Assembly (NCBI GenBank): GCA_019448385.1
Contig: JAGTXO010000099.1
Coordinates: 1 to 40,000 of the forward strand
Length of the DNA: 40,000 bases
Source: Diacronema lutheri
Taxonomy: Eukaryota; Haptophyta; Pavlovophyceae; Pavlovales; Pavlovaceae
Direction of reading: 5' to 3'
Position numbers and translations under genes: made by a program. This document shows positions 1-32,169 of the stretch, one piece after another. Every line of letters begins with the position of its first letter. The stretch's first letter is position 1. The notes under the pieces are model-generated. The model made no database searches. It saw only the letters and a program-made list of their open reading frames with translations, and was not told the DNA's origin.

Positions 1-1
1 G

Positions 2-191
2 CCGCCCAGCCCCCGCCGCGCCGCCCGCCGCCCCTCGCCTGCTGCCGCCACGTCCGCCGACGCCGAGCGCGACGCCTCGCCTTCCGACCGCCTGCGCGCG
101 CTGACGCTCGCCGTGCGAGTCGCGCTCGCGCGCGGCGTGCTGCGCCACCTCCTCGCCGACGCGTCGCCGGGCGCGTCCGCGACCGCTGGCG
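2..191 (+). CDS. Partial exon at left edge, possibly the 5' exon of the giant Fanzor gene
   Basis: Frame 2 is open from the left edge and reads as ordinary protein: an Ala/Pro/Ser-rich start, then a helix-like stretch (DRLRALTLAVRVALARG) and a small-residue end. The next recognisable frame (frame 1) has a stop at 193-195, so a join needs splicing. A donor GT at 192-193 leaves one base, and an acceptor CAG ending at 379 would continue frame 1 in the matching phase. That makes a candidate 188-nt intron 192-379. The link to the downstream gene is inferred from phase only; the exon could belong to a different gene whose start lies outside the window. No known domain is visible. Confidence 0.35.
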
Positions 192-195
192 GTAG

Positions 196-3100
196 TTGCG
201 CGACGCCGTCGAGGCGGCCGCGTCCGCCGCCGCGCCGCCCGCCACGGGCGTCGTAACGAGTGGCGTTGCGGCGGGCGCTGTGGCGGCCGCACCGGCTGCT
301 GCGGGCGGGGCGACGGCGGGTGCATCGCCCATCACGCGGCCGGCGAAGCGCGCGCGGCGCACGCTCACCGCCGCTCCAGCCACCTCGGCCGTTGCGGCCG
401 CTGGAGGCGCACGCGCTGGCGCACGCGGCGCGGCCGGCGCGCCTCGCGCGCGCGCCGCGCGCGCGCCGGCCGAGTACGTCTGGCTTGCCATCGCGCGCCG
501 GATGCTGGCGGCGCGACACGCGGCGGCCGCGGGCGGCGACTTTGTCGCGTCGTGCGTCGCCGCGATGCAGGCCGAGTACGGCGACGGCTGTGCCGTCGTC
601 GTCGGCGACGCGCCTGGTGACGCCTTGGTCGAGGCTGCGGCGGCGGCGCTGCTCGAGGGCAAGCACGCGGCGGTGAGCCTCGGCTGCGTCGACCGGCCGG
701 CGGTGCTCGTCGTGCAGCGCGCCGTGGACGCGCCCACGTCGCGCGTGCACGGGTGGTGCGCGCACGCGGCGGGCGCCGCCGAGTTTGACGAGGGCGCCGC
801 GCACGGCGTGTTCAACGCGATCGTCGAGCGCGCGTGGGCGCTGCGTCCGGACCCGGCCGACGGCAGCCCGCCGCCCACGCGCACGTGGGAGGTCGAGCGC
901 ATCGCTGACGACGCGCCCGACCAGGCGGGCGTGGCCGCGCTGCGCGTGCTCTACGCGCTCGTCGCGGCGCACGGCCGCTACCGCTCGGCCGCCGCGCTCT
1001 CTGGCGCGCTCGCGCAGCTGCACGCGCCCGACGCCGCCGGCGCGCGCGCGGAGGTCGTCGCGGCGGCGTGCGCGGTGCCGCCCGGCGCGCGGCCGGGCGC
1101 CGCGCCGGCGGCCGCGCGGGACGACGCGAGGGAGCGCGCATGGGAGGGCGCTCGGATCGCCGCGCTCGCCGTCGGCGCGGACGCTGCGCGCAGGCGTGTC
1201 GCGCCCGTGCGCGCGCTCGTCGACGCGCTCGGCACGCCACCGACCTCGGCGATCACGGGCGGGCCGGCGGTGCGGCTCGCGGGCGCGGGCGACGGCGGCC
1301 ACGGTGCACGGTGGGTGGGCGGGCAGGCGGCGACGCCCGCCGAGCAGCTGCCGAGGGAGCTGCTGCGCGCCTACCACGAGGCGGTGCTGTGCGTCACGCC
1401 CGGCAGCCTCCAGCTCGACTCGGCGGCGCTCGACGCGGTCACGCGGCCGCGCGAAGACGACACGCTGGAAGGCCTCCTCGCGCGCGTCAGCTGGCAGTGC
1501 GGCGCGAGGGCGAGCACGTGCGCCATGCTCGCCATGTTTTCCGAGCAGGCGGGCACCGGCTCGCGCGTCGCGCTCAAGGCCCTCCGCACGAGCTCCGACC
1601 TGGCCGGGCTGACGGCGGCTGCGGTCGGGCAGCAGGCGCCGCAGACGCCGCCGCCGCCGCTGCTCGTGATGCTCGGCCGCTGCCCCAGCCCGCTCGTCGG
1701 CGGCGGCCTCTTCCCGCCCGACCGCGCGACGGGCGAGCCGGCGGTGCACGCGGCGACGTCCGAGCTCGCCGTCGAGCTGCTGCGCGACGCGCGCGCGCTG
1801 GCCGGCACGGACGGGCGGCTCGTCGTGCTGTGCCTCGAGGCGTCCAACCCGCTCTGGTTCTGCCCCAAGGTGCGCGAGCTCGAGCTGCCGCGGACGCGGT
1901 CGGACGGCGTGCGCGCGTCCGGCTGCACCTGCCCTGCGACGTGCAGCGATGCGCGCGGCGCGGCGGGTGGCGCTGCCCGCGGCGCATCGACGCGGCCGGC
2001 GGCGCGCGCGATCAACAAGGCGGTGCTCGACCACTTCGTCGCGCTTTTCGGCCGCGAGGGCTTCGCGACCTTTGAGTTTGCGGGCGGCGGCGAGGCGAGC
2101 TGGCTGTGCGACAGCGCGGCCGGCAAGACGACCGTCGCGGCGTGCGCGTCGCTCCCGCCGCGCATGGGCGATGGGCAGCTGGCCATCCGGCGGCACACGC
2201 TCGGCACGGGCGCCGACGCGCCGGCGCACGCCGTCGTCTCGCTCCGCGTCGCGCACGTGAGCCACGCCATCCGCCGCGCGGCGGACGACGGCGGCGCGCG
2301 CGCCGAGCGGATGGCGCGCGCCGCGCGCGCGTTTTGCGATGTGGCGGCCGCGCTGCGCGTCGACGCGATCCTGGCGGAGGTGCCCGAGGACCGCCCGACG
2401 GGCACGCCCTTCCTTGGCGGGCTGCTCGAGTTTTGGAACAAACGCCACGGGAGCTCGACGGCGCCAGCCACGCTCGCGCTCGGAGACGTGCGCGAGGTGG
2501 CCAAGCGGACGGCCGACGCAGCGGCCGGCCGAGCGGACGAGGTCCCTGCGGCTGGCCGTCCGCAGGTCGCGGCGCGCGCGTGCGCTGGCGCGATTGGCGG
2601 CGGCGCGGGCGCGGCGGGCGCCTCGGACGCTGCGCCCCGTGCACTGGCGGGCGCGTCGGGTGCGCGCACGGACGGCGGCCCTGCCGACGCACCGCGCCAG
2701 CTGGAGAGCCGCTACGGCGAGGCGAGCAAGCTCGACCTACCCCAAGATTCCACTACGGGCTGCGTCCTCGACGCTCGCGAGGCCCAGGACCGCGCGCGCG
2801 TGCCTGCTGCGCCCGACGGCACAGCGCTGCGCCGCGTGCTCGACGCCGTCGGCGCGGGCGCGCCCGCGCAGCGCAGCCCGCGCTGGCACGACGAGCGATG
2901 GGAGGAGGTCACGGGCAGCAAGGTTGGCGACGTCGTGAACGACAACGCCGGCGTCGCGCACGAGACGCTCACCGACGAGTACGTGCACCGGCGGCGGCGC
3001 GAGGTGCGGACCAAGGCGACGACCGCGGGCATCCTCGGCGAGGCCGTCGCGCTGCGCAAGCTGGCGGCCGCGTACGGCATCACCGTCGTGTGCAACCTGC

Positions 3101-6100
3101 CGATGGTGCGTGCGGACCCGCACGACAAGAGCGCGCCGTTCGCCTTCTCGCCGGACGGGCTCGCCATCCTCCCCGAAGACAACGAGCAGGTCCTCGTCGA
3201 GGTGAAGACGCTCACCAAGGCGGACGCCAAGGCGCACGAGGACGGGCCGCCGCAGCCGCACCGCGATCAGCTGCAGCTCGGCATGCACGTCCTCGGCGTG
3301 CGCAAAGCGCTCTACGTGCAGTACCTCAGGCACGAGGACCGGATCGTCGTGCACGTCGTGACGCGCGGCGTCGGCTGGCTTGCATTCGCGCAGCCGAGGG
3401 TGCAGGCCTTCTGGGCGCGCGTCGTCGAGCGGCGCGCGCGGCTCGAGCGCGCGCGCGCCGACCACCCGGCTGCGAGCCGGCGGCACCGGCGGCAGCAGAC
3501 GCCGGCCGGGCCGCCGCTCGTGCTCGCGCTGGACGGGCGCATCCCCGCCGCGCGCGCCGCCGCGCTGCACGCCGTCGCGCACGGCACCGCGAGCGCGGCG
3601 GCGGTGGCGGCGACGGCGGCGACGGGCGACGCGACGGCGTTGCAAGACGCGATCGCGGCGCTGCGCGCGCCCGTCGGCAATGCGGCGATCGACAGCGCAG
3701 CGCGTGCGGAGCGCGCGGCCGTCGAGCGGGCGATCGCGTACCTCGGGCAGCCGGCAGGCGACGCCGCCGCCCGCGGCACGGCCGAGGCAGCCGAGGAGGA
3801 GAGGACGGTCGACGCCGACATCTGCGCGTTGCTGCACCAGCTCGGCGCGAGCGTGGCGCACGTGCACGTCGAGGACGCGGATTGCGTCACGCGTGAGCAC
3901 TGGGGCGAGGCGGTGCTCGCTGCAGCGGGCGACCCGTCGAGCGCCCCCGCCATTTCGAGCGTCATCGTCGCGCACATCGTGCGGCTCGCCGGCTTTGGCG
4001 TCGAGCTCCCGCAGTCGATTCGCGTCGCCCCCAGCACGGCCGACTGGCACGAGGGCTGGCTCGACGTGCAGTGCGTGCTGCTGCGCACGCGCCGGCGCGG
4101 GCGGCGCGACGACGACTTTGTGGCCGTCGTCAGGCGCGGTGGGCGCTGGTTTGCGTGCGAGCCCGGCCGCGCGCGGCGGCTGCAGTGGCGGTCGGTCCTG
4201 CGCCGCGCGCGCGGCGGCGTCGACGGGACCGGCGAGGAGGCGTTCGCGGTCGTCTACGTGCGGCGCGGCGACGCGGCCGGCGACGCGGCTGGCGACGCGC
4301 AGGCCGAACGGGCGCGCGGCGGGCGCGCGCGCAGGCGCACGCGCGGCGGCACGCGCAAGCGCAAGCGCGGCGCCTCCGCCGGGCTCGAGGCGGCCGCGCC
4401 CGCCGGCGCGCCGGCTGCCGCGCCCGCCGGCGCGCCGGCGGGCGCTGCTCACCGCCCGCCCGCCATGCGCGCGACGGTCGCCGCGCGCACCACGCGCTCT
4501 GTGACCGACGCGCGGCACTCGGCGCCTGCCGCCACGGTTGCACCTGTCTTCGACTGGCGCGCCGGCCGCCCGCCCCCCGCCGCTCGAGCCCGCCACCCGC
4601 GGCCGCGTGGGCGCGCGCCACCGGGCAAGGCCTGGGACAGCGTCTCGGGTGCGTGGGCGGACAAGCCGACTGGTGCTGCCGTCGCCGGCGCGCCGCCGCC
4701 GCTGCCGCCCGCCGCCGCGCCGCCGCCCACCGCCGCGCCGCCGCCCGCCGCCGCGCCGCCGCCCGCCGTCGCGCCGCCGCCCGCCGCCGCGCCGCCGCCG
4801 CCGCCGCCACCGGCGGCGCTCAACCGCTGGCAGCACGTCGGCGCGGGCGGCAGCGCGGCAGGCCGGCGGCTCGCGGCCATCGCACGGCGGCAGCGCGGCG
4901 TGCGCGCGCCGCCGCCCGCCGCGCGCTTCCTCGCTACGCTGCCGCCACCGCCACGCGACGGCCTCGCGCGCACGAGCAAGCAGGCGCGCGCGAGGCGCAA
5001 CGCGGACGGACGGCCGGCGCACGCGCGCGCGGCCAACGCGCGCGCCTTCTACCGCGGCGTGGAGCTCGGCGTGCACGCGACGCGCGCCATCGTCGACGCG
5101 CGCCACGCCGACCTGCCGCAGGCCGTCTTCGTGGCGGAGGCGCGGGCGATCGTCGCGCGCTCCGCCGGCGGCGGCGCGCTGCTCGCGCCGGACGACGTGC
5201 GCGACCTGTGCGACGCGCAGACGGACGCCGATCGCGCTGCGATCTGGGCGTCGGTGGGCGCGCACGAGGCGACGCGCATCTTCGCGCTCGTCACGCGCAA
5301 CGCGAGCTTGGCGGGCGCGGCGCTGCTCGTGCTGCACACGCCGGCGGGCGCGCCGGCGCGCGCGCTCGGGCTCGTGGCGACGCGCTCGCGCGCGCCGTCG
5401 ACGGGCGCGCCGCGCGACGCGCACAGGGCGCTGGTGCAGCGGTTGGACGTGCTGATGGACGCGATCGCCGCGGCGCGAGGCGCGTCGCCGCTCGAGCTCG
5501 AGCTCGCGCTCGCGCCCGAGCCGCAGAGCGCGTGCAACGCGCGTGCGGCCGCGCTGCTCTGCCTGCAGGCCGTCGCGGACGCGAGCGGCCGTCCCGCCGC
5601 TGAGGACGCGCTGGCCGCGCTCGACGACGCGCGCGGCATCGACCGGCACTGCCACGCCGTCCGGCAGCAGATCGAGGCGAAGCTCGCGTGGCGGCGCACC
5701 GACGGCGCCGTCGGCGTTGACGGCGCCGACGGCGCGCCCGCGCTCGCGCCTGCCGCCGCACCGCCGGCGTGCGCGCCGGCGCACGCTGCCGGCGAGGCGG
5801 CGGTCGACCAGGCGATCATCACGCGGGTGCGCGACGCGCTGCGCGCGTGGGCGACGACTGACACCGCGCCCAGCGCGGCGGTGCTCGACGACGCCTGCGC
5901 CGCGTACACGGCGCGCGCACGCGCGCGCAAGGACGCGCGCACGGCGCTGGGCCCGACGCGCGCGGCCGAGCTGCTCGCCGCGGCCGCGCGCGGCGGAGCC
6001 GACGGGGCGGATGCCGCGCGCGCGCTGCTCGGCGGCACGCCGCGCCTGCTCGTCGTGCTCCTCTGCGTGCCCGTCGCCGCGCCGTCCGGCGAGCCGCCGC

Positions 6101-9100
6101 GCCCGGTCGGGCTGCTCGTCGCCGACCGGCCGACGGACGACTCGCGCCCGGCCGCGCTCGTGCGCTACGACTTTGCGCCGCTCGACGCGGACGTGGCCGT
6201 CGCGGTCGGCGCGCATGCCGTCGCGCTGGCCAGTGCGATCTGGCCGCTGCTCGCGGCCGAGGGGGAGCCGCGGCCATCGCCCGTCGTGCGCTCGCAGCCG
6301 CGCGGCGGCGACGATGGCGCGCGTGCGCTCGCAACGTTCGCGTGCCTCGACGCGCTGATGACCGCCAGCGTCGGCGCGCTCGGCCTCGCGGGCGGCGCGG
6401 GCATGCTGCCCGCGCTGGTCGCGCGAGGCGCCGCGGCCGCCCAGCGCGAGCGGCAGCTGCGCGCGGCCACCGAGAGGCTGGGCGGCACGGTCGCTGGGTG
6501 GCCGGACACGGGCGCGAGCGCGGCGGGCGCGAGCGTCGACGAGGAGGCGCGCACGTACGAGGTCGAGGCGGTCGTCGACGAGCGCCGCAAGGCGGGCAAG
6601 AGGGTGACGTTCCAGTTCCGGATCAGGTGGCGGGGCTACGACGAGAGCGCCGACACGTGGGAGCCTGAGGCCAACGTGAGCAGCGACCTCGTCGCCCAGT
6701 TCCGCAAGACGCGCGACGAGCAGAAGCGGCGCGCGGGCGGATCGGGCAGCGGCAGCGGCGGCGCGGGCGCGGCGTCGGCATTGGCGTCGGCGCCGCTTCG
6801 CGCGCACGGCGTGTCGGGCGCCGCGGGCAAGCGCGCCGTGGCGGGTGCCGCCGCGAGCGCGCGCGACGCCGCGGGCGCGCGCGCGCCGAGCGTTCCCCGC
6901 GCGCGCGGCGTCGAGCGCGCGCGCGTGGACGAGCCCGCTGCGCCGAGCGCGCGCGCCGCCGGCGGCGCGACGGCGCGCACGCGCGGCAGCGTGCTCCCGG
7001 GCTTCGTGGTCAAGCGCTCGACGCTCAACGCGGGGCCGCAGGCGGTGACGGCGCAGCCCGGTGCGCGGAAGGAGCTGCGGCGCATCGCGGCGGCCGTGCA
7101 CAGGCTCACGACACAGGCGTACCGCGTCATCAACAAGGTGGTGCGCGACGAGGCTGCGGTGGCGAGCGCGCAGGCCGTCGGCGCGGCGTCGGGCGGCCCG
7201 TCGACCAGCGTGCACACGTCGACCACGATGGACAAGGGAACCGTCCTTGCGATCTTCTCGGCCATCGGCTGGCACAAGGACGAGAGCACGTACGGTGCAG
7301 CGCCCCGAGGCAAGCCCGCCGAGCAAGCCGCCGCGCAGACCAAGGCGGCGACGGCGCGCGCCGTCGGCGAGATGGCCGAGGGCGTCCAGCCCGTCTGCGC
7401 GGTGGGCCTCACGAGCATCCTCAAGGAGGAGGCGACGCAGGTGTCCACCGCGTGCCTGATGCACCCATCGCGCGTCGTGAACGGGCTGCTCCGCGACGTC
7501 GTCCGCGCGGCAGTCGAGCGCGACGAGGCGCTCGTCGCGCTGCCCGAGATGCAGCGAAACGCGCGCGTGCGCGAGCTGTGCGAGCGGCTGCTGCGCGGCG
7601 ACGTGGAGGGCGCGCGCGTCGGCTGCCCCGCCGCGCTCGACCGCCACCTGCCCGACATGGTCCTCCACGAGGTCGACTACAAGTGCGCGCCCACGGATAG
7701 GTGGAACTACGACCGGCACACGACGCGCTACTTCCTCGTGCAGATCCGCAACCTGCAGCACGTGGCCGAGGGGCAGGCGCTGCTCTGCCGGCTCGCGCGC
7801 CTGTACACGCAGCTCACCGACCGGCCGCCGCGGTATAATGTGGCGCCACTGCGCACGCACAATGTGCGCGCGAGGCGCGGCTGCCGCTGCCGCCGCCGAG
7901 CGCCCAAGCGCGCGCGCCGCCGCCGTGCGCGCCGCCCCGCGGCCAGGTTGGTCACGCGCCCGCGCGCTCGCATGCCGCGCGCTGCGCGCAGGTGCCGCGC
8001 AACGTGCGCCTCACCGCGAACGCCATCTGGGAGACGCTCCCGGACGACGAGCGCAAGGAGCTGCGCGCGCGGCTCAAGGCGCTGGACCTGCGCGACCACG
8101 ATGGCGAGCCGATCAAATGGACAGGCACAAACGGCAACACCCCGCCGATGTCGGACGTGCGTGTCAGGTACGCGGTCTTTGCGACGCGCTTCGACATCTC
8201 CAACCGCGTCTTCGACTACGCCGGGCGCGAGCGGCCGCCGGCCGATCTGCCGTGGCACGCGCGGCGCTCGTGGGTTGGCCTCGCGCCGCTGCCGCGCGTG
8301 CCGCTTCCGGGCCGGCAGCCCGTCAAGTCGGTGGTGACAGATGGCGTCGCCGTGCACGCCGTCGGGACCGTCCTCGTGCCGAAGGCGCAGGCGCCGGCCG
8401 GCGGCTCGGGCGTCCTGCACCGCTGGCGCCGGCCGGACGGGCGCATCGCCGTCGCGCTCGGCTCCGAGCTGCGGCGGGCGATCGACGTCGAGGCGGCGGT
8501 CGTCGTCGCGGCCGACCCGAACATGGGCAACATCACCACCTACTCTGCGCACGTCGGGCGGGCGGCCGTCTGGCGGCAGTTCACGCAGCGCGCGCGCGCG
8601 CGCGCCGCGGGCTTTGCGCGCGAGACGGCCAAGACCAACGCGGCGCGGCGGCGCGTGCGCAAGGACGGGCGCGGCGGTGAGTTCAGCGTGGAGGCGGACG
8701 AGGCGCGGCTTGGCGAGGCGCACAGCGCCAAGGTGCTCGGCGAGGGCGAGTTCCACGCCTTCCACCGCGAGAGCGCGCGGGTGCGCGAGCGCGCCGCCGA
8801 GCACGTGTACGACGCGCCGGCGCGCCGGAAGGAGCGCTGGCGGCGCGACAGCGGCGGGCGGTCCAACGCGGCGCGCGTCGCCGAGGCGCTCATCGCGGCG
8901 CACTGCGTCGACGGCGTGACGCGCGACCGGCTGCTCGTGTGCGTGGGCAAGTGGCTGCGCGACCACAAGGGCGCGCAGCCCAAGGGCGCGCCGCCCGCCT
9001 TCCAGGTGGGGCTGCTGCGCGAGCTGCGGCGGCGCGGCGTCGCGGCCGTCTTCGTGCCCGAGCCGTACACGTCGATGCACTGCTCGATGCCGCGGCTCGC

Positions 9101-9716
9101 CAAGGGCGGCAGGCTGCAGCGCTGCGGCGCGGAGCTCGCGCAGAACCCGCGCCTGCCCGTGGCAAAGGGCGGCACGCGCACGGTGCACGCGCTCGTCATC
9201 TGCCCGGCGTGCAACGGCGGCAAGAAGCCCGTGCACCGCGACTACAACGCCGCGCGCAACATCTTCTACGACGTGCACGACATGGCGGCGCACGCGGCCG
9301 GGCGCGACACCACGTCGACGCCTGAGCGCTTTGCCCTCGTGCTCGCCTGGTGGGCGCGCGGCGAGGTGTGGGAGCGTGAGGAGCGCATGGTGCACGGCGA
9401 GGGCGACGACTGCGACGACGAGTGCGACGGCGACGACGAGGGCGACGACGAGGGCGACGACGACGACGACGACGACGGCAGCGGCGACGGCGGCGGCGGC
9501 GAGGGCGACGGCGACGGCGACGGCGACGGAGGCGGCGGCGGCGGCGACGACGATGACGGCGGGGGAGGCGGCGGCGGCGACGGCGGTGGCGACGACGGCG
9601 GCGGGCGCGGCGACGGTGGCGGCGGCGGCTCTCGCGCCCGCACCCCCGCCCGCGGAGCTGCCAGCGCCAGTGCCGGCGGCGGCAGCGCGCGCGGGCCGAA
9701 GCGCGGCCGGCGTTGA
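196..9716 (+). CDS. Giant multidomain protein: YqaJ-type nuclease, chromodomain and Fanzor (TnpB-like) nuclease
   Basis: Two exons (to 7863 and from 7992) give about 3130 residues; the intron 7864-7991 is phase 0 (GTGCGC...GCGCAG) and joins PLRTHN to VPRNVRL, the usual TnpB/Fanzor wedge-to-RuvC transition. Approximate order: NLS-like basic start; C48-like module 95-275; unrecognised Cys-containing region 490-775; YqaJ-type PD-(D/E)XK nuclease 896-1078; a cryptic USP/OTU-like module 1205-1357; basic and PPPAA-repeat linker 1370-1540; C48-like modules 1610-1830 and 1870-2090; chromodomain 2118-2175; Fanzor 2265-3040; Asp/Gly tail ending PKRGRR. The Fanzor part has RuvC-I Asp2731, RuvC-II Glu2913, zinc cysteines 2920/2934/2960/2963 and RuvC-III Asp2973, so it looks intact. 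Expected role: RNA-guided DNA cleavage in the nucleus, likely carried by a mobile element. Long open frames are cheap at this GC content, but three recognisable domains in one frame argue for one protein. The true start is uncertain (no ATG at 196). Confidence 0.78.
2880..3430 (+). other. Domain: YqaJ-type PD-(D/E)XK exonuclease/recombinase nuclease
   Basis: Within the giant protein, residues 896-1078 show the order seen in YqaJ/lambda-exonuclease-like nucleases: a W-x3-TGSKVGD entry, GILGEA with Glu949, SPDG with Asp987, LVEVKT with Glu1002 and Lys1004, then a Gln-rich helix (RDQLQLG, Gln1025 and Gln1027) and a closing beta strand. All metal-binding positions are present, so the nuclease is probably active. 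Family members process DNA ends for strand annealing in phages and viruses. That it helps the Fanzor module repair or copy DNA is inference. Confidence 0.72.
6547..6723 (+). other. Domain: chromodomain
   Basis: Residues 2118-2175 of the giant protein match the chromodomain pattern closely: TYEVEAVVDERR, then a strand FQFRIRWRGYDESADTWEP, then EANV and a C-terminal helix ending in Gln/Lys/Arg. The aromatic cage positions are present as Tyr (in TYEVE), Trp (in IRWRGY) and Trp (in DTWEP). Chromodomains bind methylated histone tails and are common at the ends of integrases and transposases in eukaryotes. Here it sits directly before the Fanzor module. Confidence 0.88.
6985..9716 (+). other. Domain: Fanzor (eukaryotic TnpB homologue), RuvC-type RNA-guided nuclease
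   Basis: The exon-1 part holds the N-terminal recognition and wedge region, ending in the PLRTHN segment; exon 2 holds the RuvC fold. RuvC-I reads VVVAADPNMGNITTYSA (Asp codon 8514). RuvC-II reads VFVPEPYTSMHC (Glu codon 9060), the counterpart of the TnpB EYTSxxC motif. A zinc finger follows with Cys codons at 9081, 9123, 9201 and 9210. RuvC-III reads HRDYNAARNIFYD (Asp codon 9240). The glutamate is in the canonical place rather than rearranged. After residue 3040 there is a tail of about 90 residues, almost pure Asp/Gly, then Arg/Ala/Ser and a basic end. TnpB and Fanzor proteins act with an omega RNA encoded at or beyond the 3' end of their gene. Confidence 0.9.
7864..7991 (+). other. Spliceosomal intron in the Fanzor gene (128 nt, phase 0)
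   Basis: The donor is AAT|GTGCGC and the acceptor GCGCAG|GTGCCG. Frame 1 before and frame 3 after are joined without breaking a codon, and the join restores the conserved PLRTHN-VPRNVRLTA segment. The presence of an intron shows the gene is adapted to the nuclear genome. Confidence 0.85.
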
Positions 9717-10135
9717 CGCACGGCCGAGCCGCGCAGCGGTCGACGCTTTGCGGGCTCTGCCCAGGTCGCGCGCGGCTGGCGACGCGTACCGCATTCGGCA
9801 CGCCCGTGCACGCCGCCACCCGTGGCCGAGCGCGCCGCACCAGCCGGCCCGCTCCAACCGCCGTGCGGATCACGGACGCTCGCTACGGCTCGTCGGCGCG
9901 CGTCACCTGCGCCGGCGGCCACGGCGCCGTCTGCTCCGGCCTCGTCGCGAGCAGCCCGACCGCTGCTCGCCGCCCGCACGCCGCCGCAGCAACGCTGCGC
10001 GTCGTGCTCCCCCGCTCGCCAAACGCGAAGAGCTCCCTCACAAGGACGTCCTTCCGAATGGCCCGCGCTGCACTCGGGGCGCTCGATCGTGCCCCTGATC
10101 GGATTTGGCTTGACCATCTATACACGCTTGCCCAA
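9717..10135 (+). other. Region downstream of the Fanzor stop; no gene seen, candidate omega-RNA location
   Basis: This strip follows the Fanzor stop directly and precedes the first copy of the direct repeat. Frames are open only as expected from base composition and show no family resemblance. In TnpB systems, and in studied Fanzors, the guide RNA scaffold overlaps the 3' end of the gene and the element end, so this is where one would be expected. I cannot fold it here and see no obvious terminal repeat, so this is a location inferred from family knowledge only. Confidence 0.3.
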
Positions 10136-10405
10136 TTGAAGTTGTCGGACCTCGACATTTCCGCACCCCCGCCGAGGCCATTATTTTGCAGTCTTCAAAA
10201 TCAATATCATTCCCTGGACGGCTTGGGAGGGGAATGGCGCGCGGTGCAGTCGCCACAACTGTTGGGGCGCGGCGCTCGGCGTGAGCGGCGCACCCTATAC
10301 GGTGGAAGTAATGGGCGGAGCAACCGCTTTCGAGGTCCTCTACCGTCCGCAACCGGCACACGGCGCGCGCAAGCGCGTCGCGCTGCTCGTCCGCGCCGTC
10401 GACGC
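10136..10405. repeat. Diverged direct repeat, copy A (truncated copy of the 3' end of the 701-residue gene)
   Basis: This stretch aligns along its length with 12961-13210. Shared blocks include TTGTCGGACCT, GACATTTCC, GCAGTCTT, TTGGGGCGCGGCGC, GGCGTGAGCGGCGCAC and CTCGTCCGCGCCGTCGACGC. Copy B includes the last codons and 3' flank of the minus-strand gene at 13140-15625, so copy A is a displaced remnant of that gene end. It lies just downstream of the TIR-like gene's stop. Scattered substitutions and small indels indicate an old duplication. Confidence 0.75.
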
Positions 10406-10430: not shown

Positions 10431-12580
10431 TCAGGGTTTCGACAGGTACGGCTCGGGACGGTGGCTGATGGGCGCGACGCGGCTTGTCCATCGCCTCGCG
10501 TGGCCGAGCCCGAGCAGCGCCGCGCGATCGTGCGACACGCCGACGGCGCCGCGTGCCGCACGGCACGGCGCGGCGTGGTCGCAGCGCAGCAGCATTGCGC
10601 GAATTTCGCTGTGGAAGCGCGCAAGCCCGCCCGGATAGGTCTCGACCAGGTCGAGCAGACGGTCGTGATCGCCGCTCACCGTGCAGACCGCGTCGCGCGC
10701 GTGGAAGCGCGCGACCAGCGCCTCGATCGACGGCATCTCGCACGCCTCGTCCGACGATGATTCCCCACCGCTCGGCGTGCGCGACGCGCGCGACCCGTGC
10801 AAAGAGCGCAGCGAGGCACGCGCCGCACCCACGGCCGCGCTCGGCAGTCGCGCAATGACGCGCTGCTTCACCAACGCCGTCGTCGCCAACCATGATGTGG
10901 CGGCGCGCGACGCCGCACGCACGCACGCGCTCGGCTCGGGTGCGACGATCTGCGGCGCAGCCGCCGGCGCGGCGCGGTGCGCGCTCACGCCCAGCTCGGC
11001 GCACTCGGCCGTCTGTGCGCCGATGGAGCGTTCGGGCAATTCCCGCGACGCATTGGCCCCGCGGCGTGTGTCGCGCACGTCGACGCACTGTGGGTCGCCG
11101 CCCATCTGCGCGGCGCACGGACGAGGCGGCGGGCCGCGGACGCGCGTGCTCGGCGCCTTAGCATCGGACGCGCGCTGCGCGTCCGGACTTTTCTGTGCCA
11201 CGCGCCGCGCGCTGCGCGCTCGGGGCGCCTCACCGCCAGGAAGCACCATAGCTCGACGACGCACCACAGCCGCGAGAGGAAGGTCTCGTCGAAGAGCACG
11301 AGCAGCGTGTTGCACGCCGAGACGAACACGGGCAGGCACGCGACGCTCATCGACGCGTCGCGCGAGCTGACGCAGAATCGGTCGATCCAAAGCAGCGGCC
11401 ATCGGCCATGCAGCCGCTTAAAGTCGTCGCACCACGCGACGAGCGCCGCCCACTTTGCGGCCGGATCGCCTTGCCAGCTGCACGGCGCACGGGCGCGGCA
11501 GGCGCGCGCCGGAATCGTCATGGGTGCGCGCCGTCGCGCCGGGGACACAACGCGCGTGTGCGGAGCGGCGACACGCAAAGTGGCAGCCGGGCGGCGAGCG
11601 CGCACACGCGCGTGTGCGGAGCGGCGACGCGCACAGTGGCAGCCGGGCGGCGAGCGCGCACACCTGTGCGAGACGAAGGCGTCGATCTCGCCCGCGTACG
11701 CGCGGCGCGTGCGTGCGGCCGCGTCCGCCGGGATGAAGGCGGTCGCAAAGTCGCTCGCGCGCAGCTGCTCGGCGGAGACGGCGCACAGGAGCTCGCGGCT
11801 GCGTGCTAGCACCTCGTCCGTCGAGCCCGCGCCCATCAGCGTCGAGATGGCGATGGCCGACGAGCCCGCCTCGCCGCGCGCCGCGAGCCAGCCGACGAGC
11901 GCCGCTCGCAGCGATGGCCGCAGCGAGAGAACGCCGACGGCGACGATGACGGCGTGGCCGACGAGCGAGACGGGAGGTGTGGGGTAAGAGCCGCGGCCAC
12001 CAAGCGCGGCGGCCGCGACAAAGACTGTTGTGTACGCGGTTCCGAAGACGACGCAGTTGCAGCCAAGCGAGAAGAAGAGCGCGTCGAGACGCGGCCGGCC
12101 GTGCGCAAAGCGTGCAAGCGACAGGGCGACGTGGGCGGCGCCGAGCATCCAACCGGTCACCTGCACGATGCCTGAGGCAAGCTGGACGGTGCGGATCGCG
12201 CACTCCGTCCGCGTCGCCACCCACGCCTCCGCGGACAAGCACCAGTGCTCGACGCCGAGATGCGTGCCGGCGGCGAACGCGAAGAACGGCGTGTCGCGCC
12301 GCGCGTCCTGCGTGTTGGGCGTCTTCTGGTCGCCGTGCTCGACGCGCAGGACGACGTACAGGAGGACGATAGTTGCGTACGCCACGTGAAGCGCGAGCGT
12401 GACCATGCCGAACGCCGCGACCGTCCGCCGCTCGGTCGGCAGCACGGACAGGAGGAAGGTCACGAGCCCGATCAGCGTCATCTCGATGACCGCGAGCCGG
12501 AACGCCGCGCCCTTCATGAGCAGCGCGACGGCAACGTTGCCGACAATGAGGCATGCGGCTCCGAAAAGCATCGGCGGCAT
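10431..12580 (-). CDS. Multi-pass membrane protein with TIR-like cytoplasmic domain
   Basis: Three exons, read right to left: 12580-11664, 11477-11234 and 11105-10431 (611 residues). Introns are 186 nt and 128 nt; both have GT-AG ends and phases match. The first join restores DAFVSH-SWQGDP, the second ELWCFLA-MGGDP. About six hydrophobic segments fill the N-terminal half (near residues 4-22, 28-47, 55-79, 125-150, 158-182, 188-215). A cytoplasmic domain follows: DAFVSHSW, WCDDFKR, LLWIDRFCV, CLPVFVSACNTLLVL and LSRLWCVVELW, a TIR-like fold common in haptophyte and pelagophyte membrane proteins. A C-terminal block (DRLLDLVETYPGGLARF) is typical of the same family. The start was set at the Met just before the first membrane segment; the frame stays open to 12706. 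Function is unknown; signalling or self/non-self sensing is only a guess. Confidence 0.72.
11551..11662. repeat. Tandem repeat, 56 nt x 2, inside intron 1 of the TIR-like gene
   Basis: Two adjacent copies (11551-11606 and 11607-11662) differ at only a few positions. They sit wholly within the 186-nt intron and abut its splice donor, so the duplication may have lengthened the intron. The intron length is a multiple of three and has no in-frame stop, so retention would give a longer protein rather than a truncated one. Confidence 0.9.
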
Positions 12581-12960: not shown

Positions 12961-13210
12961 GTATTGTCGGACCTGGACATTTCCTCACCCGCTGGGAAGC
13001 CATCCTGCATGCAGTCTTTAAAATCTCTTGGACTCGGGAGGGAAATGGCGCGGGGTGCAAGCCGCCACAATCGTTGGGGCGCGGCGCGCGGCGTGAGCGG
13101 CGCACTGCTTGCGGTGGGGGTGAGGGGCGAGGCACCCGATTACACCGGGTCGTCCGCCGCCCGCATCCGGCGCACGGCGTGCGCGAGCGCGTCGAGCAGC
13201 TCGTCCGCGC
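12961..13210. repeat. Diverged direct repeat, copy B (includes the 3' end of the 701-residue gene)
   Basis: Partner of 10136-10405, about 2.8 kb away in the same orientation. The last 70 nt are the final codons of the minus-strand gene ending at 13140; the rest is its 3' flank. The TIR-like gene lies between the two copies. This could be a segmental duplication that later lost most of one gene copy, or an insertion between duplicated flanks. Confidence 0.75.
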
Positions 13211-15625
13211 CGTCGACGCGCGACACGCGCGGCGCGGCGCCCACCCGCACGCGCTCGGCCGCGCCACCGTCCGCGCGCGCGCCCGGTCCGTCGTCCACCG
13301 CCCACGTCGCCCAGTAGAGCGACGCGGACGCGAGCGCGGCGGCTGGCGGCGCGCGCGGGCTGTCGGCGCGCGCCGCACCGCCCGGGCCGCCCTGCCCGTC
13401 CCCACCGTCGCCGCCGCCGTTGCGCGGGGTCGCCGCGCCGACCGCGCCGCTCGCGAGCTCGAGCAGCTCGCGCGGATCGCCGCTCAAAAAATGCACGACG
13501 CGCCTCGCAGGCCCGCGCGCCAGCGCGCGCGCGCGCACCGGCGCGCGCGCCGCGCCGCCGCCGGCGGCGGCGGCAGCGTCGGCGGCGGCGGCCCGCGCCG
13601 CCGCGGCGCGCCGTGCGGCGGCCGCGTCGATGCGCGCGCCGAGCGCAGCGACGCGCGAGGCGCGCGCGCGCGTGCGGTCGCCGGCTGGCGACGCGCGCGC
13701 CCCCGCGGCGAACGCGCCGTCGGTCGACGCGCGCGTCGACGCGGCCGCGCGCGACGGAGCCGGCGGCGGCGGCGTTGGCTGCGCGCCGAGGCCGACGCCG
13801 GCAGCTCGCGCGATCGCCGCGCGCGCGCCGCCCGCGCCGAGCGTGGGCGCGGCGAGGATCTCAGCGCGGACGGAGGTGGGCGGCGGCGCGTACGCGGCGC
13901 CGTACGCGCTGCCGCCCACCTCCGCCGCGACGCGCGGCTGCTGCGGCTGCGGCCTGCCGTCGCGCGCGGCCGCCACCGCGGCCGCGGCGAGGCGTTCGAG
14001 CAGCGGCGAGGCGCGCGCGGCGGGGAGGTGCGTTGCGATGAAGACGGCGGAGATGCCAGCGGACGCGAGGCGTGCGCCATCGTCACACGCCGCGGTGCCG
14101 GGCGGCGCGGCGGAGCTGGCGGGCGGCGCGAGCGCGCGCAGCAGCGGCAGCGCGGCGGCGCGGGACACGTGCGCTGCCGCCCAGCCCTGGCGCGGGAAGA
14201 CACAGGTTTGCGCGGGAAATGCGATGGCGGTGCACTGCGTGAGGCGGTAGTGAGAGCTCGGCGCAAAGCAGGCTGGCGCGGGGTGCTGCGCGTCTTGGCC
14301 GACGGATCCCGGCCCTCGGATCGCGGCCCTCGGATCGCGGCCCTCGGATCCCGGCCCTCGGATCGCGGCCCTCAGATCGCGGCCCTCGGATCCCGCGCTG
14401 CACGGATCGCGCGCGCTGGCCGCGCGCGCAGACGGTGCGGCGCGCGCGTACGGCGCGCGCACCTGCGGGTCCGCCGCCCACCACTCGGCGCGCACCGCCC
14501 CAACGGCCGCCTCGAGCTGCGCGGGCGAGACGCCGAACCGCCGCAGCAGCAGCGCCGCGAACGGACGGCGCGCGTACGTGTGCCGTGCGCCACTGTAACC
14601 GTGACCGTCACCGTCACCGTCACCATCGTCACTGTCGTCGTCACCATCGTCACCGTCGGCACCCTCGTCCCATGCCGCGGCAATCTCACCGACGGTGAGC
14701 GCGCGACACGCGGAGAGGGGCGCCGCCGCCGCGCCGGCTGTCGCCGGCGCGCCGGCCGCGGCCGCGCGCTCGCGCGCCGCGCGGCGCGCGTGCGCGCCGA
14801 CCGCCTCGTCCGCGCAGAGGCGCGCGATGAGCGCGAGCTCGGCGGCGCTTTTTAAAAGCGGCGCCGGTCGGGGGTCGGCCGCGCGGCGGCTTCGCACCGG
14901 AGGCGGCGGCGGCGGCTGCGCGGGCGCGAGCGCGCGCAGCTTGAGGCGAAGCCATGGCGGGCAGGCGACGGCCGCGTTGCGCTCGGGGAAGGAGGGCGCA
15001 AAGGCCTGGCGCGAGGGGCGGCGCGCGGGGAGCGGGAGGGCGGAGGGCGTGGCTGAGAGGAGGGGCTCGCGCGTGTGCACGCGTGCACGCGCGGCCGGCG
15101 CGCGCGCACCTCGGCTGCGATGCGCCGCTTGTCGGCGGCGGTGACGCCCGGCTGGTGCCGCCTGATCCCCGCATCCGCCGAGGGCACATACGCGCACGCC
15201 GCCATCTCGCGCGGCCACAGCCGGTGCGCGGCGCCAAACGCGACGAGCGACACCTCTGGCTCGGGGTCGCAGAGGACGGCGTAGAGCGGCACGCACAGCA
15301 CGTGCTCCGCGCCGGCGGCGGCGGCAGCGGGCGGTGCAGCCGAGTCGCCGCTGCCAGGTGAAGCGGAGGCGGCGGCGGGGCGCGCCGCGAGCGCGGGCGT
15401 GCCGGCTCCGGCGCCGTCTCCGCGCGCCGGCGCGAGCGCGTCGGCGGAGGACGGGCGGAGCGTCGCGCGCGCGCGCTCCGTGGCAAGCTGGAACGGGAGG
15501 GAGGGCACGCGTGGCGTGGCGCGCATGCCGCGCGGCGGCTCGCCGCCGCCACGGCGTGGCCGCGGCGCGCCCATCCCGTTCGCGCCGACGGCGAGCGCGA
15601 TCACGAGAATGCCGCCCCCGCCCAT
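13140..15625 (-). CDS. Unrecognised protein with N-terminal signal-like segment (701 residues)
   Basis: Three exons, right to left: 15625-15110, 15005-14463 and 14186-13140. Introns are 104 nt (GTGCGC...CCAG) and 276 nt (GTGCGC...CCAG), both phase 0, total 2106 nt including stop. I do not recognise the family. The N-terminus is short and hydrophobic (ILVIALAVGANGMG), possibly a signal or bipartite plastid signal. A compact stretch follows around residues 100-175 (CVPLYAVLCDPEPEVSLVAFG) and could be a conserved core. Middle: Pro-rich linker, an acidic Asp/Gly run near 290 and a helical segment (FAALLLRRFGVSPAQLEAAVGAV). Third exon: Ala-rich coiled-coil-like helices and an ending HFLSGDPRELLELAS ... 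SLYWATWAVDD. The start shares a 122-nt upstream region with NCBP1 on the other strand. Its 3' end is duplicated at 10136-10405. Confidence 0.6.
14303..14397. repeat. Tandem repeat, 14-nt unit x about 7, in intron 2 of the 701-residue gene
   Basis: Units of the form CGGATCSCGGCCCT run head to tail with alternating G/C at one position. They sit entirely within the intron 14187-14462. Confidence 0.92.
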
Positions 15626-15747: not shown

Positions 15748-18700
15748 ATGAAGCGCGGGCGGCACAGCGACGGCGACGAGCGCGGGCGCGGCGAGCGCGC
15801 GCCGCCGTCCGCCGAGGAGGTGCGCCGGCAAGCCGAGGCGCGCATCACCGGTCTCATCGCGCGGCTCGGCGAGCGCTCGACCGACGGCCTGCACGCGCAT
15901 CTCGACCAGCTCGCGCGGGTGCGCGCCGCGCGCCGCGGCCGAGAGCGCGCTCCGCGATGCGGCGCGGCGTGCGGTGCGGGCGGTGGGCGAGCGCGCGCGT
16001 GCGCGCGCGTGCGCGCGCGCGAGCGCTCGAGGTGGAGTCTGTGCGCCGTGCGCGCACGGCGGCCGCGCGCGCGCGCGCCGCGATGCGCGCACCGCACGCC
16101 GCGCGCGCTTCGGCCGAGCGCGCGCCGGCCGCGCGGCGCGCCGACGCGCCACCCGCCGCCCGCTGCCGCCGCCGGCCCCCTTCCGGCCGGCCGCGCGCGC
16201 GCGTGTACACGCGCGCACGCGCGCGTGCACAGGCCTTATACGACGACGCGCCGCGTTTCGGCGAGTGCATCTGCGAGTCGCTCGTCGACGCGGCGGTCTG
16301 CCTGCCGCACAAGGCGCCGATCTATGGCTGCCTCGCGGGGCTTTTAAACGCAGCGGACTCGGCGTGGGGGCGGGACTGCGTGCGCGCCGTCTTCTCGCAG
16401 CTGCAGCACGCCATCTCGTGCGCGCCGCTGCCGCGCCTTTGCTGTCCTTCCCGCGAGGGGCGTTGGGGGGAGGGGGGTTGGGGGGGGGCAGCACGCCATC
16501 TCGACCGGGTGGCGCGGCGCGGTGGGGCGGCGGGCGCAGCGAGCAGGCCAGTCCGGGCCAGTCCGGGCCAGGCAAGCCAATCCGGGCCAGGCCAAGCCCA
16601 GCCAAGTTGGCTCATGAACGGCTCACCCACCCGCGCCCGCACCCGCGCCCGCGGCGCGCAGGACGCACCACGCCACTTCCGCGAAACTTCTCCTCCGCCT
16701 CCTCGCCGAGTTGGCCAACTGCCGCGCCGTCTCCGCGCTCGCGCTGCTCGCCACGCTCAACGACTTGATTGACAACGCCGCCACCGCCGCCGCGGCCGGC
16801 GCGGCGGACGCCGCCGCCGCCGCCGCCGACGCCGCCGACGCCGCGCCGGCCGCCGGCCGCGCCCGCGCGCGCCGGCCGGCGGCGGCGCTCGCCGCGCAGC
16901 TGACGGCGGACGGGTGGGCGCTCGCCGCGCTCGCGGCGTTGCCCTTCTGCGCGTCGACCTTGCGCGCGCGCGTCGAGCCCGTCGCGCTCAACGAGCTGCT
17001 CGCGAAATGCGCCGCGTACGGTGCGCGGTCCGGTGCGCGGTCCGGTGGCGGCGGTGGCGGGTCCGGTGGCGGGTCCGGTGGAGAGTCCGGTGGTGGCGGC
17101 GACGGTGGCGGTGGTGGCGGCTCCGGTGGCGAAGGCGGCGCGCAGCGCGCGGACCTGATGACATGGGACGCGGCGGCGGCGCTGCGTGTGCTGGGCGGCA
17201 CGCTCGGCGCGCGCGACGCTGGCGTTGGCCGCGAGGACGGTGGTGCCGACGTCGACGCCGACGGGGGTGCCATGGAGGGCGGCGTGAACGAGCCCCACGA
17301 TGGCGGCGATGGCGACGGCGACGCGCGCGGCGCGCGCGCGCGCGCGATCCTTGTGGACACGGTGCGCGAGTGGGCGGGGCCGGCACTTCGTGCGCTCATC
17401 GCCGCAGACCTGCAGCCGCCCACGATGGTCCTGACGCCCTGGGCCCGATGCGACGCCGCCGGTGCGCGCCGAGCCGCCGCGCCGCCCCGTCGCGCCGCGC
17501 GCCGCGCGCGCTGGTCTGCGCCGACGCGCGCGGCGGGGCGCGCGGCCGTGTGCGCGCCGGCACGCACCGACGCCGCGCGCCGCGGCGCCGTCGGCGCGTG
17601 GCGGCGGGGGCGGCGGGGGCGGCGGCAGGGGCGGCGGTGGCGGCGGCGGCGGTGGCCGGGCGGAAGCGTTGCCGCCCGTCGCCTGGCGGCGCAGCGCTGC
17701 GCTGCGCTGCGTTGCGTTGCGTTTGGTGCCGCCGCCGGCCGCCGCTGCCTTCGCCAACGGCACGCTGCTTCGCGCTGCCCTGCCCTGCCCCGCCCTGCCC
17801 CGCCCTGCCCCGCCCTGCCCCGCCCTGCCCTGCCCTGCCCCGTCCGCTCCGTCCCTGCAGGCGACTTTGAACGGGCGGTGGCCCACCCAATTCCGCGGCT
17901 CATTTTCCCGCCACTCCCAGCCGCGGGCACCGCCGAGGGCGACGGCGGCGGCGGCGACGGTGGCGGCACGCCGGCGCGCGGCGGCGCGGGCGCGCGCGGC
18001 GCGGGCGGCGGCGCGCGCGCCATTTCCCGCCCATGCCTCGCGTTACGCTTCTTCGCGTCGACGAAGGCGCAGCTTGGCTCCGGGCTGCTCGCAAACTCGG
18101 CGGTGGAGAGGTGCCTCGCCGAGGACTTCTGCGCCGACCTGGTCGAGGCCTTCCACGGCTCCGCGGCGGAGGGCGCAGCGCAGCTCGCACACTGCCGCGA
18201 GGTTTTTAAAGTCGAGACGAGCGGCGTGGTGGTCGAGGCGGCGCTTTCGGCGATGCTCGCGATGGCGGCGCCGCGCCGTTTGCCGCTCTACTACTGCGCG
18301 CTGCTTGGTGGGGCGGCCCCTCTCCCCTCTCCCCTCTCCCTTTCCCCCTTTCCCCCTGCCGCGCCGTTTGCCGCTCTACTACTGCGCGCTGCTTGGTGGG
18401 GCGGCCCCTCTCCCCTCTCCCCTCTCCCCTCTCCCTTTCCCCCTTTCCCCCTGCCGCGCCGTTTGCCGCTCTACTACTGCGCGCTGCTCGGTGGGGCGGC
18501 CCCTCTCCCCTCTCCCCTCTCCCTTTCCCCCTTTCCCCCTGCCGCGCCGTTTGCCGCTCTACTACTGCGCGCTGCTTGGTGGGGCGGCCCCTCTCCCCTC
18601 TCCCCTCTCCCTTTCCCCCTTTCCCCCTGCCGCGCCGTTTGCCGCTCTACTACTGCGCGCTGCTCGGTGGGGCGGCCCCTCTCCCCTTTCCCTTCTCCCT

Positions 18701-20231
18701 TTCCCCCTTTCCCCCTTTCCCCCTGCCGCGCCGTTTGCCGCTCTACTACTGCGCGCTGCTTGGTGGGGCGGCCCCTCTCCCCTCTCCCCTCTCCCCTCCC
18801 CTGCCGCTCTACTAGTGCGCGCTGCTTGGTGGGGCGGCCCCTCTCCCCTCTCCCCTCTCCCCTCTCCCCTCCCCTGCCGCTCTACTAGTGCGCGCTGCTT
18901 GGTGGGGCGGCCCCTCTCCCCTCTCCCCTCTCCCTTTCCCCCTTTCCCCCTGCCGCGCCGTTTGCCGCTCTACTACTGCGCGCTGCTCGGTGGGGCGGCC
19001 CCTCTCCCCCCTCCCCTCTCCCTTTCCCCTCTCCCCCTGCCGCGCCGTTTGCCGCTCTACTACTGCGCGCTGCTTGGTGGGGCGGCCCCTCTCCCCTCTC
19101 CCCTCTCCCCTCTCCCTTTCCCCCTGCCGCGCCGTTTGCCGCTCTACTACTGCGCGCTGCTCGGTGGGGCGGCCCCTCTCCCCTCTCCCCTTTCCCTTTC
19201 CCCCTTTCCCCCTGCCGCGCCGTTTGCCGCTCTACTACTGCGCGCTGCTTGGTGGGGCGGCCCCTCTCCCCTCTCCCCTCTCCCCTCTCCCTTTCCCCCT
19301 TTCCCCCTGCCGCGCCGTTTGCCGCTCTACTACTGCGCGCTGCTCGGTGGGGCGGCCCCTCTCCCCTCTCCCCGCTCCCCTCTCCCCTCCCCTGCCGCTC
19401 TACTACTGCGCGCTGCTTGGTGGGGCGGCCCCTTTCCCCTCTCCCCTCTCCCTTTCCCCCTTTCCCCCTGCCGCGCCGTTTGCCGCTCTACTACTGCGCG
19501 CTGCTCGGTGGGGCGGCCCCTCTCCCCTCTCCCCTCTCCCCTCTCCCCTCTCCCTTTCTCCCTTTCCCCCTGCCGCGCCGTTTGCCGCTCTACTACTGCG
19601 CGCTGCTCGGTGGGGCGGCCCCTTTCCCCGCTCCCCTCTCCCCTCTCCCTTTCCCCCTGCCGCGCCGTTTGCCGCTCTACTACTGCGCGCTGCTCGGTGG
19701 GGCGGCCCCTCTCCCCTCTCCCCTCTCCCCTCTCCCCTCTCCCCTCTCCCCTCTCCCCTCTCCCCTCTCCCCTCTCCCCTCTCCCCTCTCCCCTCTCCCC
19801 TCTCCCCTCTCCCCTCTCCCCTCTCCCCGCTCCCCTCTCCCCTCTCCCCTCCCCTCTCCCCTCTCCTCTCTCCCCTCCCCCCCCCCCCTTTCCCCTTCCT
19901 ACCCCTTCTCTCCCTTCCCCTCCCGTCCCCTCCCCCTTCATCTCATGCCCCCCCCCCCCCCCCCCCCCCCCTTCCCCTGCAGTCCACCTCTGCCGCGGGC
20001 AGATGCACGCGTTGCCCCTCGCCCTCGAGCGCGCCGCCACCGCGCTGCTCGCCGCCGCGCCCCGCCTCGACCCCGCCGCGGCGGACGGCGTGGCCGCGTG
20101 GCTTGGCTTCCAGCTCGGCCACTTTGGGTTTGAATTGCGGCAGGTGGGGCGGCCGTTACGCGGCGGCCGTTACGGCGCGGCCGTTACGCGTTGCGCGCGC
20201 TGGGAGCCGCCGGGCGGGGCGGGTGGAAGCT

Positions 20232-26994: not shown

Positions 26995-27019
26995 AAAGAC
27001 GTCTTCCTTTTCCACCAGC

Positions 27020-32118: not shown

Positions 32119-32169
<51 letters not shown>

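Follow-up and report, generated by a model that had tools for sequence, protein, structure and literature searches.

Organization of the Locus

The window analyzed here covers 40 kb from the start of contig C16 in the genome of the haptophyte Diacronema lutheri (43.49 Mb, 103 contigs). Its positions 1–10123 hold the 3' end of a mobile element, young and high in copy number, which is 31 kb long when complete. The contig starts inside this element, the features of which described below are all on the plus strand. The terminal gene of the element, with which this study mainly deals, is carried in the window by two open frames, one at 196–8337, which matches the YqaJ and Chromo domain models, and the other at 7839–9716, which matches the TNB domain of the Fanzor nucleases. 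The chances seem to us to be even that this gene specifies one very large protein, composed of an open frame of ~4,500 codons and ~570 further codons after a single intron. Exon 1 of this giant gene, which was delimited based on the open frame, the comparison between copies, and a codon model, extends from 196 to 7863 in frame 0. The frame begins only at 196 in the window because one base is missing near 207 in comparison with the other copies, a 1-nt deletion which might also be an assembly error.

The predicted YqaJ / RecE / lambda-exonuclease-type PD-(D/E)XK domain is located at 2884–3291. The YqaJ model (PF09588) matched the window open reading frame (ORF) with an E-value of 0.0095, which did not reach the cut-off, and scored above the cut-off in the scan of the genome. 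The RecE-like exonuclease family phrog_434 matched copy A, one of the full copies of the element, at 4.6e-15, and the lambda-exonuclease model TIGR03033 gave 4.4e-6, a value under its cut-off. Since these two independent models agree, the assignment to the exonucleases can be taken as a firm prediction. The segments GE, SPDG, VEVK, and DQLQ of this domain are presumably the PD-(D/E)XK catalytic motifs. The motif set and the profile matches are like those of the YqaJ / RecE / lambda exonucleases, which are known as phage or bacterial recombination enzymes of a few hundred residues, whereas in the present eukaryotic element such a domain makes up one part of a giant frame. Further downstream, a linker which is first basic and then Pro/Ala-rich was delimited at 4343–4830 from the alignment of the copies and a weak codon signal. 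Between copies, the length of this linker varies by 24, 33 (gaps of 29 and 4 being combined), and 18 nt, each of which is divisible by 3; an 18-nt repeat, which would suffice alone to produce steps of this kind, makes up part of the linker.

The chromodomain (6556–6708) was identified with PF00385 (E-value 5.8e-12; 45.8 bits vs. a cut-off of 25.1), and its matches in the PDB are CDYL and HP1 chains (best 5.3e-9). Its translation shows Y, W, and Y at what we take to be the usual places of the aromatic cage, and it may bind histone methyl-lysine.

The Fanzor appears to be split between two exons. The segment 7000–7863, which is in the frame of the chromodomain, is probably its N-terminal (WED/REC-like) part, to judge from the codon signal extending up to the donor site and the continuity across the splice in KFE25_006464 (see below); a long N-terminal part was to be expected ahead of exon 2, because the catalytic D of SpuFz1 is residue 383. 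There follows at 7864–7991 a phase-0 intron of 128 nt, the GT and AG borders of which are preserved without exception in the 11 distinct copies examined, one of them having a 2-nt insertion inside the intron. In a 60-nt codon scan based on a model trained on parts of the same giant gene, the signal left frame 0 near 7860, was absent until ~7980, and was then found in frame 2. The annotated D. lutheri protein KFE25_006464 (P0003) is spliced at the same junction and is continuous into exon 2, as far as the annotation goes. This SAM-domain protein begins with a piece of the element's Fanzor and is possibly an exonized or captured transposon fragment.

Exon 2 (7992–9716) covers the RuvC and zinc-finger region of the Fanzor and an acidic, Gly-rich tail ending with a TGA stop codon. 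The TNB domain (PF07282) was detected at 9024–9263 with an E-value of 2e-6 (28.3 bits vs. a cut-off of 26.3), the NCBIfam model guided_TnpB scored 13.8 bits on the Fanzor part vs. a cut-off of 100, and the best PDB match of this exon was a weak one, Cas12f1 (E-value 0.3). In PMC3627910, the TnpB/Fanzor motif is given as D-X(125,275)-[TS][TS]-X-X-C4 zinc finger-X(5,50)-RD, and the residues found here, D226, T411-S412, C415/C429/C455/C458, and R467-D468 (numbering of the frame starting at 7839), have this spacing. The RuvC-I aspartate, identified from its motif position and the alignment, is the D of ADPN (8514–8516), where relatives show DPG (P0006, P0007, and P0008) or DTG (P0002); the C4 zinc finger occupies 9081–9212, with Cys codons at 9081, 9123, 9201, and 9210, and the RuvC-III aspartate is that of HRDYNAARN (9240–9242). 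The RuvC-II glutamate (E408; 9060–9062) stands six residues ahead of the first zinc-finger Cys, C415, which is the "alternative" place described for Fanzors in PMC10711439, and an E is also present there in P0002 and P0006. The published pattern CxxC-x(12,18)-CxxC followed after 4–8 residues by D differs from what is observed here, since the residues of the first Cys pair are 13 rather than 2 residues apart, the pairs are 25 residues apart, and D468 comes after 9. The D-E-D RuvC residues, and presumably the use of a guide, are shared with SpuFz1 and GtFz1 (PMC10432273); the catalytic positions of SpuFz1 are 383, 541, and 606, whereas the Fanzor of the element ends a ~4,500-codon frame plus an exon.

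Homologs were searched for among 5.8 billion proteins, the best 8000 word-sharing candidates being scored; low-complexity words may have swamped this search. Four partial homologs of the Fanzor exon were obtained (43–51% identity), all of which start at the exon-2 boundary, three of them with Met, and a further match at 98–99% identity was found in an ENA contig. The Fanzor relatives among the scored candidates are short proteins of 271–674 amino acids (aa) having neither exonuclease nor chromodomain. No homolog of the giant frame was found among these candidates, a result which is uninformative given the possible swamping. Two scans of viral contigs yielded no Fanzor relatives, and no capsid or polymerase domains were present among the ORFs scanned; a viral origin of the element was rejected on these grounds.

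Coding Signal of the Giant Frame

The GC content of the first 10 kb amounts to 74–84%, and a 1,757-aa open frame also exists on the minus strand at 2737–8010. Since stops are rare at such a GC content, the length of the frame is no proof in itself that it is coding. A six-frame codon model trained solely on exon 2 of the Fanzor and one helicase exon was applied to 240-nt segments: frame 0 was the best of the six in all the 31 segments from 431 to 7870, and its score was positive in 27 of them, the weak segments being those starting at 2591, 4271, 4511, and 4751. In the first segment (191–430), frame 0 was not the best. At the scale of the element, a codon-position pattern was detected through most of ~19 kb and was weak at ~15.3–17.6 kb. 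Apart from single-base changes in the copies on C3 and C40 and that near 207 in the window copy, the copies differ in length by whole codons within the coding part (the gaps of 29 and 4 being counted as one). The frame carrying the YqaJ domain is at least 4,000 aa long in 105 of the 150 scored copies (median 4,502.5) and less than 3,000 aa long in 23.

The original prediction, which was made from the letters of the window only, had placed YqaJ-type motifs, a chromodomain, and the full Fanzor RuvC motifs in one frame, the last across one phase-0 intron. The YqaJ-type assignment is borne out by phrog_434, TIGR03033, and the motif positions, and those of the chromodomain and the RuvC motifs by the matches above cut-off and, in the latter case, the D-E-D residues and the C4 zinc finger. 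The intron is supported by the codon signal, the intact splice sites, and the KFE25_006464 junction, and the joint arrangement is confirmed by profile matches, codon signal, and splice sites.

Distribution of the Domain Order in the Genome

The contigs of the genome were searched with the profiles of the three domains: the best 150 of 203 YqaJ candidates were scored, as were the best 150 of 306 TNB candidates, 148 of which matched. A TNB domain lies 5.97–6.17 kb downstream of YqaJ on the same strand at 80 or more of the 150 scored YqaJ places; the remaining 70 are without a listed TNB partner, at least in part because only the best 150 of the 306 TNB candidates were scored. In 104 of the 150 copies, YqaJ is followed at a distance of 3.41–3.70 kb by the Chromo domain (146 of 150 chromo rows being used), and the two domains report the same open-frame length in 93 of these 104. 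Among the 31 top-scoring TNB rows, none has a scored YqaJ 4–9 kb upstream, and the eight of them that were fetched belong to one other Fanzor family; the fusion therefore appears, as far as the scored lists show, to be specific to the element's own Fanzor family. The recurrence of the domain order, which had been proposed as a check, was thus observed within the D. lutheri genome (80 or more loci, 93/104 with a shared frame) but not among the Fanzor relatives found, which are the short proteins mentioned above.

The other Fanzor family is also present in high copy number. Its members (L001–L008, on C11, C1, C4, C9, C25, and C69) are 95–99% identical; in most of the eight copies, the 3' end consists of a hairpin followed by TATATATG, and the RuvC-II region reads DESYTSQDCSKC.

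Copies and Ends of the Element

Ten loci were fetched because their TNB scores were equal or nearly equal to that of the window. All ten align with window positions 1–10123 (one to 10120 and one to 10129) at 97.7–99.2% identity and diverge beyond this point. The full copies A and B, which are 31,050 and 31,042 bp long, respectively, are 99.26% identical to each other and have different flanks; another pair of copies shows 99.93% identity over 16 kb. The mobility that the original prediction had judged probable is therefore well supported, and its overall interpretation is upheld in part, namely as regards mobility, the shared frame, and the phase-0 intron. The element is larger than had been seen, however, and has additional helicase and UCH peptidase genes, and the proposed span of 196–9716, although both its frames exist, is too narrow, since the element extends as far as 10123 and its beginning lies upstream of the contig. 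If the window copy is full length, the 5' end of the element lies ~20.9 kb upstream of the contig start; shorter copies exist. Because some copies are ~21.6 kb long and have a helicase match differing from that of the 31-kb copies, there are at least two subfamilies, which have both ends in common. Decayed copies occur as well: at 16 of the 150 scored places, YqaJ is in a frame of less than 2,500 aa, some of these frames being perhaps cut by contig ends.

The 5' end is CTATATACGG at all the 19 junctions read (one flank is common to the copies on C39 and C45). The 3' terminus, CTATAC, is located in the window at 10118–10123 with a unique flank beyond it; this end was found in 24 of the 26 rows with a flank, where copy A is counted twice, and CTAACG in the other two rows, which are one copy. 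The copy with which contig C43 ends has CTATAA as its 3' terminus. The end-sequence analysis showed a subterminal hairpin, GGGGC...GCCCC, at 10076–10095, and the 5' hairpin is weak. A candidate 3' asymmetric terminal inverted repeat (ATIR) occurs at 10059–10068: 9 of its 10 bases in copy A are complementary to bases 10–19 of the 5' end, and the window copy differs from copy A by one further base. When the two end pieces, which were picked after the repeat had been seen, were shuffled, 9/10 was reached in 21 of 1000 base shuffles.

No site-specific target duplication was found in the 16 copies having both flanks, where the repeat never extends beyond a constant 5-nt CTATA (3 nt in copy B). CTATA is present at both ends of every two-flank copy except copy B (in the window at 10118–10122) and is equally frequent in mismatched pairs of flanks; it is either element sequence or a fixed target duplication. 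Assembly misjoins may have affected the flanks of the 31-kb copies; nine copies with lengths of ~12.7–26.5 kb, as calculated from the coordinates, behave likewise.

The 3' end of the element coincides exactly or nearly with the end of four contigs (C3, C32, C33, and C43) and with the start of six (C1, C6, C10, C12, C26, and C29), as judged in the case of the starts from TNB or 5'-end coordinates. The exact ends of the former had suggested a telomeric element. This possibility was rejected because TTAGGG arrays occur elsewhere (among the places listed, at the start of C15 and C30 and near 890 kb of C29) and because the read N50 of the assembly, which is 23.458 kb according to the genome paper (PMC8379373), is below the length of the element; assembly breaks explain the contig ends. 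The repeat is therefore large and abundant enough to limit the contiguity of the host genome assembly. The same paper gives 22.9% repeats, mainly long terminal repeat elements followed by long interspersed nuclear elements, and the stem "transpos" is absent from its main text.

Other Genes of the Element and Comparison with Helitrons

A PIF1 helicase is encoded near the 5' end of the element (PF05970, 1.9e-15 and 9.4e-23 on two frames). Among PDB entries, its best relative is Helraiser, a Helitron transposase (1.9e-7 and 5.4e-12 on the two frames), and the region preceding it in its frame, which gave no database match, resembles what we take to be a single-strand-binding protein. A UCH peptidase (4.3e-8) is encoded upstream of the giant gene. 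An inverted repeat of ~870 bp with arms ~90% identical was also observed in the 5' part, where the element is richer in AT (L033:7049–7935), and is possibly a regulatory or replication signal. No HUH/Rep, DDE, tyrosine recombinase, or reverse transcriptase domains were found in the element ORFs scanned.

The ends of the element resemble those of Helitron2, yet it was not classed as a Helitron because no Rep/HUH domain was found. Like the Helitron RepHel system (Helraiser), the element has a PIF1-type helicase, of which Helraiser is the closest PDB relative, and hairpins near its ends; it differs by the lack of a detected HUH/Rep domain, the extra genes, the ends CTATATACGG...CTATAC in place of 5'-TC...CTRR-3', and the presence of CTATA at both ends. 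According to PMC3627910, Fanzor1 is carried in Chlamydomonas reinhardtii by the Helitron2 elements CRe-1, -2, and -3, which are described as non-autonomous. The present element shares with them a Fanzor having RuvC motifs and a C4 zinc finger, the high copy number, the 3' hairpin, a candidate pair of ATIRs, and apparently the lack of a variable-sequence target site duplication in full-length insertions. It differs from what is described there in its length of 31 kb, its helicase and UCH genes, and its Fanzor, which is in frame with an exonuclease and a chromodomain across one intron. The possibility of a DDE transposon was also considered and rejected, as the scanned ORFs lack a DDE domain, there are no inverted repeats at the very ends, and no site-specific target duplication was seen; the constant CTATA at both ends may nevertheless represent a fixed TA-type duplication.

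Remainder of the Window

Just beyond the element, two diverged direct copies (79–86% identity) are located 2.8 kb apart at 10248–10405 and 13060–13219, and two tandem 56-bp units, 96% identical, at 11550–11661. A long pyrimidine-rich stretch occupies 18001–20000 (GC skew −0.27 and −0.58, AT skew −0.65 and −0.85). Two likely host genes encode a carbon–nitrogen hydrolase (26891–28756; 4.8e-32) and a member of the PP-loop ATPase family (31311–36470; 5.9e-14), and an internal telomere-type (TTAGGG)4 repeat is present at 32410–32433.

Proposed Function and Alternatives

The best explanation, to which we give an even chance, is that the terminal gene of this young, high-copy 31-kb element joins a Fanzor, a chromodomain, and an exonuclease of the lambda type in one protein, the two nucleases of which would serve, together with the helicase, for the retention and copying of the element. 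TnpB and Fanzor proteins derive their guides from the 3' end of the element and the flank. Resection of 5' ends is the activity of lambda-type exonucleases, PIF1 helicases assist strand-displacement synthesis over long tracts, and chromodomains bind methylated histone tails; the combination of these activities suggests that the element may be maintained by break and copy. The element would move, perhaps by a Helitron2-like route; the Fanzor would take an omega RNA from the 3' end of the element, with a guide reading into the flank, and would break an unoccupied copy of the flank site. The exonuclease would then resect the break, and long synthesis driven by the helicase, with the occupied site as template, would fill it; Fanzor, exonuclease, and helicase would in this way act as a single machine for retention and copying. 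The role of the chromodomain would be to keep the complex on the modified-histone chromatin where the copies sit. We regard as quite unlikely a stronger version, in which the element would be a self-contained RNA-guided homing replicon, with each insertion taking a guide from its own flank, cutting of the unoccupied site by the Fanzor, resection by the attached exonuclease, PIF1 break-induced copying of the 31 kb, and a chromodomain confining it to marked chromatin.

Several observations weigh against the retention and copying machine. As regards the gene, the codon signal is weak across the 4271–4990 linker, a frameshift occurs near 1113–1148 in two of the ten fetched copies, and YqaJ and Chromo are in different frames in 11 of the 104 copies having both. 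The substitutions between copies look neutral (196 variants in 11 copies over 8.8 kb; 2 stops observed vs. 1.9–3.0 expected, 48 synonymous changes vs. ~53 expected); intact frames may therefore merely reflect youth, and purifying selection was rejected as a proof of coding. The evidence for the fusion comes from the codon signature and the splice signals. As regards the guide, the 407-nt 3' region (9717–10123) where the omega RNA would be expected gave no Rfam match and folds hardly better than its shuffles (z −1.5), and no target-adjacent motif (TAM) that might serve for self-homing was found in the 19 5' flanks, where the strongest column is an A in 10/19 at −3. TAM-dependent homing would need a conserved motif in the 5' flank, unless the TAM is very short or lies within a fixed CTATA. 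As regards movement, no Rep/HUH domain was found in the scanned ORFs of the element, in which a very diverged or split Rep could escape as the helicase exons are undefined, and CTATA, being invariant at the two ends, might represent a fixed target duplication, a feature absent from canonical Helitrons.

The strongest alternative, which we hold to be possible though less probable than the retention and copying machine, is that the Fanzor and the exonuclease are passengers, that the element is moved by a Rep acting in trans or by an unrecognized domain, and that the fusion has no joint function. The lack of detectable selection between copies is in keeping with it, as are the non-autonomous Fanzor-bearing Helitron2 elements described for Chlamydomonas in PMC3627910, and the single place in the genome matching PF14214 (Helitron_like_N), which is on C63, outside the element. 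The catalytic residues of both nucleases are nevertheless present in the window copy, and the frame is maintained at 4,000 codons or more in 105/150 copies, which youth alone could explain, however.

Two other possibilities seem doubtful to the same extent. In one of them, an exonuclease, a chromodomain protein, and a Fanzor with its own promoter and start would be separate adjacent genes sharing a stop-free frame by chance in GC-rich DNA. The rarity of stops at this GC content, illustrated by the opposite-strand frame, the weak signal at 4271–4990, and the four Fanzor relatives starting exactly at exon 2, mostly with Met, speak for this possibility; it agrees poorly with the stop-free frame 0 being the best of six throughout 431–7870, with linker changes which are all multiples of 3, and with the reading of KFE25_006464 through the junction. 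In addition, a start at exon 2, which is ~175 residues ahead of the RuvC-I Asp (383 in SpuFz1), would deprive the Fanzor of much of its N-terminal part. In the other, the giant product would be a polyprotein cut by the element's own cysteine peptidases into exonuclease, chromodomain, and Fanzor proteins. A UCH peptidase is indeed encoded upstream, and several H...D...C patterns which we take by eye to be Ulp1-like occur in a 1,345-aa frame and in the giant frame (L011 and L030), but none of these patterns was recognized by Pfam at E ≤ 0.05, and no cleavage sites were identified. That the giant frame is a mere chance product of non-coding, GC-rich DNA is very improbable, despite a GC content of up to 84% and the many long chance frames on both strands, in view of the ordered occurrence of three domain families, of which two share a frame and the third follows after one intron, the codon-position pattern over most of ~19 kb, and the six-frame test.

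To our knowledge, Fanzors have been described so far as stand-alone nucleases carried by varied transposons. The original prediction that no Fanzor of this architecture had been described agrees with the open-access literature searched, mostly at the level of titles and the beginnings of abstracts, in which no description of a Fanzor–exonuclease–chromodomain fusion or of this element was found, an absence which carries little weight; the presence of a Fanzor within Helitron2 elements is already known (PMC3627910). In D. lutheri, a Fanzor seems to form part of the main gene of a giant element having many young copies, in frame with an end-resection enzyme and a chromatin reader and beside a helicase. 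This arrangement provides a concrete, testable proposal as to the use of a Fanzor to its carrier, and natural fusions of this kind may perhaps be useful for genome engineering.

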